Positions 42,247-44,851 of a stretch of 64,000 bases of DNA are shown here, in pieces. Below the pieces are notes generated by a model. The model was not told where the DNA came from. It saw nothing but the letters and a program-made list of their open reading frames with translations, and made no database searches. Each line of letters begins with the position of its first letter. The stretch's first letter is position 1. This stretch comes from Haloferax larsenii JCM 13917 (lineage in GTDB: Archaea; Halobacteriota; Halobacteria; Halobacteriales; Haloferacaceae). Location of the stretch: positions 1 through 64,000 of the forward strand of contig NZ_AOLI01000033.1 in the NCBI RefSeq assembly GCF_000336955.1. The letters are read 5' to 3'. The position numbers and the translations under genes are program-made.

Positions 42247-43446
42247 GTGTCCCGTGGCCGTCTCTTTGGTACGCTGTGTGGGATGGTGCTGCTCGTCAAC
42301 CTCGCCCGCGTCGTCTTCGCGCCGCTTCTCGGCGAGTTCATCCTCTTTTTCGACGTGAACCGGGCCACCGTCGGCTTCGTGGCGACGCTCGTCTGGCTCG
42401 GCAGCGCCAGCCTCCGCGTTCCGACGGGGTGGCTTCTCACCCGAATTCCCCGTCACCGCGTGGTCCTCGGAACCGGCATCGTTCTGGTTCTCGCCTCCGC
42501 GCTCACCGCCAGCGCCCAGTCCATCGAGATGCTGATGGTCGGTGCCGCGTCGATGGGGCTGGCCTCCGGTGCCTACTTCGTCGCTGCGAACCCGCTCGTG
42601 AGCGAACTCTACCCGGAGCGCGTCGGTCGCGCGATGGGCATCCACGGCACTGCGAGCCAGCTCGCGGCCGTCGGCGTCGCCCCCTTCGTCACCCTCGTCC
42701 TCGCGGTCGGTGCCGACCTCGACGTTCCCTTCATCTCGGCGTCGTGGCAACTCGTGTTCGTCTGTGTCGGTATCGCGGCCGCCGTGGTCACTGTCGCGCT
42801 CTATCTGACGGCTCGCTCGACTGACCTCCCCGACGCCGGGGCGGACGACCGCGACCTGCTCGGTGCCGTCCGTAGGGAGTGGCGCGTCATCCTCACCGGC
42901 GTCGTCATCCTCGGCGCGACCGGGTTCGTCTGGCAGGGCGTGTTCAACTTCTACGAGTTGTACATGACCTCGAAGGGACTGCCGCAGGCGACGGCGCGGA
43001 ACATGCTCACTGTCGTCTTCGGCGCGGGCGTCCCGGCGTTCTTCCTCTCCGGTCGTCTCGCCGACAAACTCCCGCGTGTCCCGTACATCCTCGGCGTCCT
43101 CGTCGCGTTCGTCGTGTCGGTCCTCGTCCTCACACAGACGCGAGGGCTCGTTCCGCTACTCGTCGTCACGGCCATCCTCGGATACGTCATCCACAGCCTC
43201 TTTCCGGCACTCGACGCCTACCTGCTCGACACGCTCCCGGACGAGAGTCGCGGCAGCGCCTACTCGGTGTATTCGTTCGGGATGATGATTTTCCAGGCCA
43301 CCGGCGCGGGTGCGGTCGGGTACCTGACCGATGTCGCGTACACGTTCGACCAGGTGTTCGTCGGCTTCGCGGTCGGGCTTGGCGTCATCGTCGCGGGACT
43401 CCTCGTTCTACAGCGCGCTGGACGGATTCCGAACGGTGGCGCCTGA
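42247..43446 (+). CDS. Major facilitator superfamily transporter
   Basis: A 399-residue transporter with twelve predicted transmembrane helices. The typical cytosolic loop between helices 2 and 3 reads GWLLTRIPRHRVVLG, and the same position in the second half reads GRLADKLPRVPYILG. The GTG start gives a compact first helix. The C-terminal tail is short. Substrate unknown; drugs, sugars or organic acids are all possible. Confidence 0.92.
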   Translation: MSRGRLFGTLCGMVLLVNLARVVFAPLLGEFILFFDVNRATVGFVATLVWLGSASLRVPTGWLLTRIPRHRVVLGTGIVLVLASALTASAQSIEMLMVGAASMGLASGAYFVAANPLVSELYPERVGRAMGIHGTASQLAAVGVAPFVTLVLAVGADLDVPFISASWQLVFVCVGIAAAVVTVALYLTARSTDLPDAGADDRDLLGAVRREWRVILTGVVILGATGFVWQGVFNFYELYMTSKGLPQATARNMLTVVFGAGVPAFFLSGRLADKLPRVPYILGVLVAFVVSVLVLTQTRGLVPLLVVTAILGYVIHSLFPALDAYLLDTLPDESRGSAYSVYSFGMMIFQATGAGAVGYLTDVAYTFDQVFVGFAVGLGVIVAGLLVLQRAGRIPNGGA

Positions 43447-43490: not shown

Positions 43491-43497
43491 TTTTATT
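43491..43497 (+). promoter_or_regulatory. TATA-like box upstream of leader ORF 43521
   Basis: TTTTATT with centre 27 bp before the ATG at 43521, not before the ATG of the main gene at 43598. Confidence 0.6.
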
Positions 43498-43520
43498 CGC
43501 TGCGTGTGACCTCCGGGCTA

Positions 43521-43601
43521 ATGACGACCCACGGGCACCACACGGGCGACACTCGAACACCACACGGGCGGCGACCCAACACGGTTCGGGGAGACAGATG
43601 A
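43521..43601 (+). CDS. Putative 26-residue leader peptide
   Basis: The ATG is 27 bp after the TATA box, as for a leaderless mRNA. The peptide (MTTHGHHTGDTRTPHGRRPN..) is rich in His, Thr and Arg. Its stop codon TGA overlaps the ATG of the following gene (ATGA at 43598-43601), so ribosomes ending the leader could start the main gene. The three CACGGGC boxes inside it are 11 and 22 bp apart. Confidence 0.45.
   Translation: MTTHGHHTGDTRTPHGRRPNTVRGDR
43530..43569. repeat. Three CACGGGC boxes, helically phased
   Basis: CACGGGC begins at 43530, 43541 and 43563, that is 11 and 22 bases apart (one and two turns). The last two are part of the 13-bp direct repeat CACCACACGGGCG at 43536-43548 and 43558-43570. 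This may be operator DNA as well as leader-peptide coding. Confidence 0.5.
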
Positions 43602-44086
43602 GTGAGGAGACCTACGACGAGTTGGCAGGCGTCGTCGACCTCTTCGGCGCACTCACTCGCGAGGAACTCGAAGACGCGCTGGACGAACTGGCATTCAAAC
43701 AGGGACACGAAACCGACACCGACGCACTCGCTGGTACGATTTCGGACGCTGTGGACGCGTACTACCTCGTCCCGTACGAGTCGGACGAAGCCGATGCCGA
43801 GTTGCTGACGGTTGGCCCGGTGGCCTTCCCGACGCTTCCACCGCGAGCAGAGGACCTCCCGCACATCCTCGACTATCCGACCCGCACGGTCCCCCGCGAC
43901 GAACTGGTCGAGCAGGTCGAAGGCCGACTTCGAACCGCGGCGGCGAAAGCCGTCTCGTCGGGAGACACCGACGAGGCCGCTCGACTGCTCGATATTACCT
44001 ACGACCTCGAAGCGTGGGCAGACACCGACGTCGCCTCGATTCGCGACCGTCTGGACGCAGCATTGGCAGAAGAGGGGCAGGCCTAA
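43598..44086 (+). CDS. Uncharacterised acidic protein
   Basis: A 162-residue cytosolic acidic, helical protein. The N-terminal helices (ELAGVVDLFGALTREELEDALDELAFKQG) suggest a small helical domain. A central YYLVPYESDEADAEL stretch follows, then LPPRAEDLPHILDYP and a C-terminal helical pair. No motif links it to an activity. The nudix gene starts 30 bases downstream on the same strand. Its start overlaps the putative leader ORF stop. Confidence 0.82.
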   Translation: MSEETYDELAGVVDLFGALTREELEDALDELAFKQGHETDTDALAGTISDAVDAYYLVPYESDEADAELLTVGPVAFPTLPPRAEDLPHILDYPTRTVPRDELVEQVEGRLRTAAAKAVSSGDTDEAARLLDITYDLEAWADTDVASIRDRLDAALAEEGQA

Positions 44087-44115: not shown

Positions 44116-44712
44116 ATGGACCTCGCGAGAGTCGCCCAACACGACCCGGAGACTGTCGAGGCGGGGCGGCACGCAGCGGTCATCGCGCCGGTCGTGATGC
44201 GTGACGACCGGCCGCACGTGCTGTTCACGAAGCGAGCCGACCACCTCGGCGAACATCCCGGGCAGATGAGCTTCCCCGGCGGTGGGCGCGAGCCCAGCGA
44301 TGTAGACCTCAGAGCGACCGCACTCCGCGAGGCCAACGAAGAAATCGGACTTCGGGCGGACGAACCCGCGTTTTACGGCCGCCTCGACGATATCCTCACG
44401 GTGACGGACTACGCGGTCTCGCCGTTCGTCGCCACAATTCCCGACCGAGAGTACGAGCCAGACGACCGCGAGGTCGCGGAAATCGCCGTCCTCTCGGTCG
44501 ACGACCTGACCGACCGCACGAACTACGAATCCGAACTCCGCGACCACCCACAGTACGGTGAGATTCGACTCCACTTCTTCCACGTCGACGGCTACACCGT
44601 CTGGGGTGCGACCGGTCGGATGCTCGTGCAACTTCTCGAACTCACGACCGACTGGGAAGTCCCGCCCGAAGTCGACCGCGTGGTCGACCCGGACGCCGAT
44701 TTTCGGGTGTAG
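44116..44712 (+). CDS. CoA-pyrophosphatase-like Nudix hydrolase
   Basis: A 198-residue Nudix enzyme that removes pyrophosphate-linked moieties. The family's UPF0035 prefix VLFTKRADHLGEHPGQMSFPGG precedes the Nudix box region GGGREPSDVDLRATALREANEEIG, which matches the NUDT7/8-like CoA pyrophosphatase group (with Asp in place of the usual Glu before the REANEE helix). The likely substrate is coenzyme A or an acyl-CoA, split to phosphopantetheine and 3',5'-ADP. ATG at 44116. Confidence 0.93.
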   Translation: MDLARVAQHDPETVEAGRHAAVIAPVVMRDDRPHVLFTKRADHLGEHPGQMSFPGGGREPSDVDLRATALREANEEIGLRADEPAFYGRLDDILTVTDYAVSPFVATIPDREYEPDDREVAEIAVLSVDDLTDRTNYESELRDHPQYGEIRLHFFHVDGYTVWGATGRMLVQLLELTTDWEVPPEVDRVVDPDADFRV

Positions 44713-44851
44713 TGTCGCGACTCGGAGCACTCGTTTAGTTTCTCAGAGCCACCGCCTCACCAGTCACGGTAAAACGCAGTAAAAAATCGCTTCGTCACGG
44801 CTGCGCCCGCGAGTACCTCGGCCGCGAAGCCGAGGAGATAACGTCCCCGGT

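Follow-up and report, generated by a model that had tools for sequence, protein, structure and literature searches.

A 26-codon open reading frame in Haloferax larsenii JCM 13917 (43521..43601 on the forward strand of the window, by which we mean the whole 64,000-nt stretch of DNA analysed) occupies the slot of a lost gene, one that resembled the gene for the glucosyl-3-phosphoglycerate synthase GpgS and that in related species stands directly ahead of a gene for a DUF7109 protein. We propose, with a probability of roughly 0.6, that this mini-ORF stands in for the deleted first gene of the operon and brings ribosomes to DUF7109, its peptide being a by-product.

Anatomy of the mini-ORF

The locus carries, all on the forward strand, an MFS transporter gene (42247..43446; Pfam MFS_1, 1.7e-41) that is a conserved upstream neighbour and ends 74 nt before the mini-ORF ATG; the mini-ORF itself; the gene for a DUF7109 protein of 162 residues and pI 4.05 (43598..44086; Pfam PF23421, 2.3e-61); and, 29 nt after it, a gene for a CoA-pyrophosphatase-like Nudix hydrolase of 198 residues (44116..44712; Pfam NUDIX, 4.2e-16; 104.1 bits against NCBIfam NF007980, below its cut-off of 134), with DoxX as a further neighbour. 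The mini-ORF product, MTTHGHHTGDTRTPHGRRPNTVRGDR*, ends at a TGA (43599-43601) that lies within the tetramer ATGA (43598..43601, forward strand), the start of which opens the DUF7109 gene; this is an overlap of the kind (4 or 1 nt between stop and start) seen in termination-reinitiation (TeRe) pairs. A Shine-Dalgarno-like GGAG (43590..43593, forward strand) stands at -8, and the same tetramer is found 8-15 nt ahead of the DUF7109 ATG in all 15 Haloferax genomes. On the other side of the mini-ORF is a TATA-like TTTTATT (43491..43497, forward strand). The preliminary description of this DNA had picked out TTTTATT, the ATG, the 26-codon frame and the ATGA into the DUF7109 gene, and every one of these parts is present. 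When the window was scanned for the full layout (a TATA-like element, an ATG mini-ORF of at most 45 codons and an ATGA that opens a frame of 120 codons or more), this locus alone showed it, out of the 308 long open frames that the 64 kb contain.

The openness of the frame at 43521 carries little information by itself, since such a frame is easily open by chance: of 2000 random 74-mers drawn from the window, 1369 left it open. Inside the mini-ORF (43524-43597) there is no TA or TG dinucleotide, and three of the 74 nt are T. As a consequence of the missing dinucleotides, each of 2000 dinucleotide shuffles (2000/2000) was open and no inner forward frame can hold a stop codon.

Two further features of the preliminary description were a CACGGGC box in three copies, spaced by 11 and 22 bases, and a peptide rich in His and Thr. 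The boxes are indeed there, starting at 43530, 43541 and 43563 (43530..43569, forward strand), and their triple occurrence is mildly unusual, a 78-nt segment with some 7-mer in triplicate having come up 45 times among 4918 sampled (~1%). As a conserved operator they were rejected, given this chance rate and the alteration of two of the three copies to CACAGGC in Hfx. elongans. The peptide does hold 4 His and 6 Thr among its 26 residues, yet it has 5 Arg too, and its pI of 11.8-12 compares with 4.05 for DUF7109.

Loss of the GpgS-like gene

DUF7109 is present in all 15 Haloferax genomes, and the C-terminus of the MFS protein lies upstream of the slot at all 15 loci. In 13 of the 15, a GpgS-like gene of 366-368 codons is directly upstream of DUF7109 and ends in ATGA, the stop/start overlap being found at the GpgS-like/DUF7109 junction in each of the 13 congeners that have the gene. 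Its product matches the NCBIfam family GpgS_Meth (NF040724; E 8.2e-71, 238.9 bits) and, over residues 105-272, the solved GpgS 7pdo (E 1.9e-10); as the family score is under the curated cut-off of 700, we use the name “GpgS-like” only and claim no activity. The window species (G000) and Hfx. elongans (G003) differ: the GpgS-like gene has no match anywhere in their whole genomes, and they are the two genomes among the 15 that contain the 26-codon frame, with the same length and frame in both. The MFS neighbour is still in place at these two loci. The missing gene is not explained by an assembly gap, since in two assemblies MFS and DUF7109 sit on unbroken sequence that includes the mini-ORF junction.

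In Haloferax the distance from the MFS stop to the GpgS-like start varies widely, from 4 to 126 nt, and in two loci no stop was found before that start (loci concerned: L016; L006, L013); some species of the genus may have an MFS gene that extends into the promoter of the GpgS-like gene.

The direction of the change emerges from a family sample of 148 genomes (15 Haloferax and 133 from outside the genus), in which DUF7109 occurs in 122 and the GpgS-like gene in 137. Outside Haloferax, DUF7109 was found in 107 of the 133 genomes, and 100 of these contain the GpgS-like gene as well; its position is adjacent, upstream and on the same strand in 98 (5 to 539 nt between match edges), and ~1.6 kb from DUF7109 in the remaining 2. 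The window species and Hfx. elongans form one clade (support 99/100) in a tree of DUF7109 plus Nudix with 19 rows, one of them DUF7109 only. With the adjacency near-universal outside the genus and the two species in a single clade, the absence of the GpgS-like gene is a derived loss in their ancestor. The 7 DUF7109 genomes without the GpgS-like gene are all 7 sampled of one genus (g3), the only other lineage found to lack it while keeping DUF7109. In that genus (L033-L039), DUF7109 itself begins 28-31 nt after TTT[TA] at 7 of 7 loci. The near-constant adjacency suggests that DUF7109 and the GpgS-like glycosyltransferase belong to a shared pathway; a full-text search of open-licence papers returned none naming DUF7109.

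The promoter was inherited along with the slot. In all 15 Haloferax genomes TTTT stands 30 nt ahead of the start codon, whether the start is that of the GpgS-like gene (13) or of the mini-ORF (2). In exact register, the window promoter is identical to that of each of the 13 congeners at 24-27 of 43 nt, and for each of the 13 the true register beats all 600 shifted placements. The preliminary description had assigned the TATA-like element to the 43521 ATG rather than to the annotated gene, and the spacing, equal to that of the GpgS-like starts in the 13 congeners, agrees with this assignment; between 43521 and 43598 there is no other AT-rich or TATA-like element (longest A/T run, 2). From the spacing we infer that the mini-ORF transcript is leaderless and that it most likely starts at or beside the 43521 ATG.

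We also tried to trace the interior of this stub to the GpgS-like gene by sequence, and the result was non-significant. Against the last 60 residues of the GpgS-like protein, 17-65 of 300 shuffles scored as well as the stub peptide; against the last 120 nt of the gene, 32-200 of 200 shuffles equalled the stub DNA (window query) in 12 of the 13 genomes, and the best case (G005, 7 of 200 shuffles equal) was a weak match over the final 16 nt. An in-frame likeness of DTRTP to DTRLP, with GTTCGGGGAG near the end, is suggestive only. The stub thus has the slot, the promoter spacing, the start position and the terminal overlap of the GpgS-like gene and no recognisable sequence of it; as position matches and sequence does not, “remnant” is used here in a positional sense. 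Its interior may be heavily decayed or of other origin.

Proposed ribosome loading and alternative roles

A history that would account for this locus begins with the order MFS, GpgS-like gene, DUF7109, Nudix, in which a leaderless-type promoter would have served the GpgS-like gene and ribosomes finishing that gene would have restarted on DUF7109 at the common ATGA. The ancestor shared by the window species and Hfx. elongans then lost the body of the GpgS-like gene and retained the promoter, the position of the start codon and the terminal ATGA, with GGAG just before it, joined by a short open stretch. In the present-day locus a ribosome would load at 43521, read 26 codons, stop at the TGA (43599-43601) and reinitiate at the ATG at 43598, giving DUF7109.

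Studies of translational coupling, cited here from excerpts, explain why such a stub might be kept. Among overlapping or closely spaced gene pairs of Hfx. volcanii, 9 of 9 had a downstream gene that strictly required translation of its upstream partner and, in the excerpted text, internal SD motifs gave no de novo initiation (PMC6728339); in that species coupling is almost lost when stop and start stand ~20 nt apart, and the last 15 nt of the upstream gene are enough for it in E. coli (both PMC10666635). On the Hfx. volcanii data, loss of the GpgS-like gene without a translated frame up to the ATGA should silence DUF7109. Two arrangements that avoid silencing are both seen: the ATGA-ending stub in the window species and Hfx. 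elongans, and DUF7109 at the promoter in genus g3. It is this combination of predicted silencing with both arrangements that leads us to read the mini-ORF as a ribosome-loading stub. DUF7109, for its part, is clearly under purifying selection (26 of 489 sites differ between the window species and Hfx. elongans, with 22 synonymous and 4 non-synonymous changes) and, being still constrained, must still be translated.

Between the same two species the stub differs at 7 of 77 nt (9%), without an indel, 4 of the changes being synonymous and 3 non-synonymous. In simulation, at least 4 synonymous among 7 changes arose in 11-13% of cases (P 0.11-0.13); this P and a frame so easily open by chance fall short of demonstrating that selection maintains the frame, whose conservation in the sister pair is suggestive. 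The neighbouring coding sequences differ at 31 of 597 (Nudix) and 60 of 1200 (MFS) sites, the DUF7109-Nudix spacer at 2 of 29, and other spacers at 50 of 390 and 27 of 138, the latter (Nudix/DoxX-like, 44713-44851) being indel-rich, with 55 gap columns in addition.

These figures bear on the possibility that the stub is a neutral scar, that is, a 77-nt 5' untranslated leader of DUF7109 whose frame and ATGA end are roleless leftovers, DUF7109 being started de novo on a leadered transcript. The stub's divergence falls between that of its coding neighbours (5%) and that of spacers (13-20%), as a scar might; an open frame is to be expected in about two of three random stretches of the window, and this one has an interior free of TA and TG; and, with 72% of the protein-coding transcripts of Hfx. 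volcanii leaderless according to the excerpted text of PMC4983044, the remainder have leaders. We nevertheless consider it rather unlikely, because the start codon has been held exactly in place relative to TTTT and the promoter is nearly unchanged, with 1 of 40 sites differing, when the spacer just upstream has 7 of its 41 sites changed and 2 gap columns besides. Further, the Hfx. volcanii work does not support de novo starts from internal SD motifs (PMC6728339, in excerpt), and a 5'-terminal AUG would recruit ribosomes anyway.

The preliminary description saw the locus as one of translational control, in which the His- and Thr-rich peptide, acting as a regulatory leader, might sense an amino acid or metal and control DUF7109 and the Nudix gene. 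The control part finds support, in that coupling through the ATGA is the most likely mechanism; the sensing part is unsupported. Neither species has lost any of the four His codons, and leaderless cysteine-rich mini-ORFs of mycobacteria do work in this way (Canestrari et al., via the excerpted PMC9031893), but here the His codons are scattered, with a longest run of two in place of the codon run of an attenuator, and Pfam and NCBIfam identify no His, Thr or metal genes among the neighbours. Nor is there the stable leader structure that an attenuator would have: in neither species does the 120-nt leader RNA fold better than its shuffles, 193 of 200 and 73 of 200 of which fold equally well or better. 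Of the three CACGGGC boxes, the sister species has two in altered form. The preliminary description had also taken conservation of the frame in relatives as the mark of a regulatory peptide, and across Haloferax the comparison went the other way: outside the sister pair the frame is missing, leaving it in 2 of 15 genomes, and the substitutions within the pair show no significant coding constraint. A sensing role is, in our judgement, highly improbable.

We are at least as sceptical of a functional micro-protein. Length and frame are equal in two species, without an indel; the peptide, however, has no family match in Pfam or NCBIfam, and it has taken 3 non-synonymous changes in 26 codons as against 4 in 162 for DUF7109. 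Its pI is 11.8-12, whereas the uORF products of Hfx. volcanii that were judged valid (15-31 residues) all have a low pI (PMC4983044, in excerpt).

If ribosome loading is indeed what the stub does, the locus shows the fate of a translationally coupled operon after it has lost its leading gene: the peptide would be roleless, and translating through to the ATGA would be what is retained. It would also offer an evolutionary origin for small ORFs ahead of haloarchaeal genes, as well as a natural experiment on whether internal de novo initiation fails in these organisms, as has been claimed, with the 7 genomes of genus g3 providing the alternative arrangement, DUF7109 straight at the promoter. More tentatively, and as a possibility that we would rate well short of even, obligatory termination-reinitiation may bar the clean removal of first genes from haloarchaeal operons in general, so that a gene no longer needed leaves either a minimal leaderless stub, made up of a start codon, a few further codons and the terminal ATGA, or a promoter directly on the next gene; such mini-ORFs would then be fossils of lost genes and widespread in haloarchaeal genomes. 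If the stub does load ribosomes, it also cautions against taking all coupled mini-ORFs for sensors.

Relation to described systems

The nearest described systems, as they appear in excerpts of the papers cited, each share part of this anatomy. The RTGA-coupled leaderless small ORFs of mycobacteria (PMC4633059) are likewise short frames at the transcript start that end in the stop/start tetramer of the next gene, and the authors propose that they deliver ribosomes and regard the linkage as more strongly selected than the peptide; the present case is in an archaeon and lies in the slot of an identifiable lost gene. The ATGA/TGATG termination-reinitiation pairs of Hfx. volcanii (PMC6728339, PMC10666635) come from the same genus and share the -4 overlap and the GGAG near it, but there the upstream partner is a full gene, whereas here it is 26 codons of no recognisable protein.

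The uORFs of Hfx. volcanii (PMC4983044) are likewise frames of 15-31 codons ahead of normal genes; they were sought in 5'-UTRs of 150-250 nt and have low-pI products, whereas the mini-ORF described here is basic and would open its transcript. The polycysteine leaderless attenuators of mycobacteria (Canestrari et al. 2020, via PMC9031893) likewise place a leaderless short ORF before an operon, and the mini-ORF differs from them in lacking both a run of codons for a single amino acid and a matching pathway gene. In the excerpts of open-licence literature searched, we found no prior account of a mini-ORF filling the slot of a nameable lost gene. The Haloferax locus is thus distinct from its nearest described counterparts in that the lost gene behind the mini-ORF's slot can be named.
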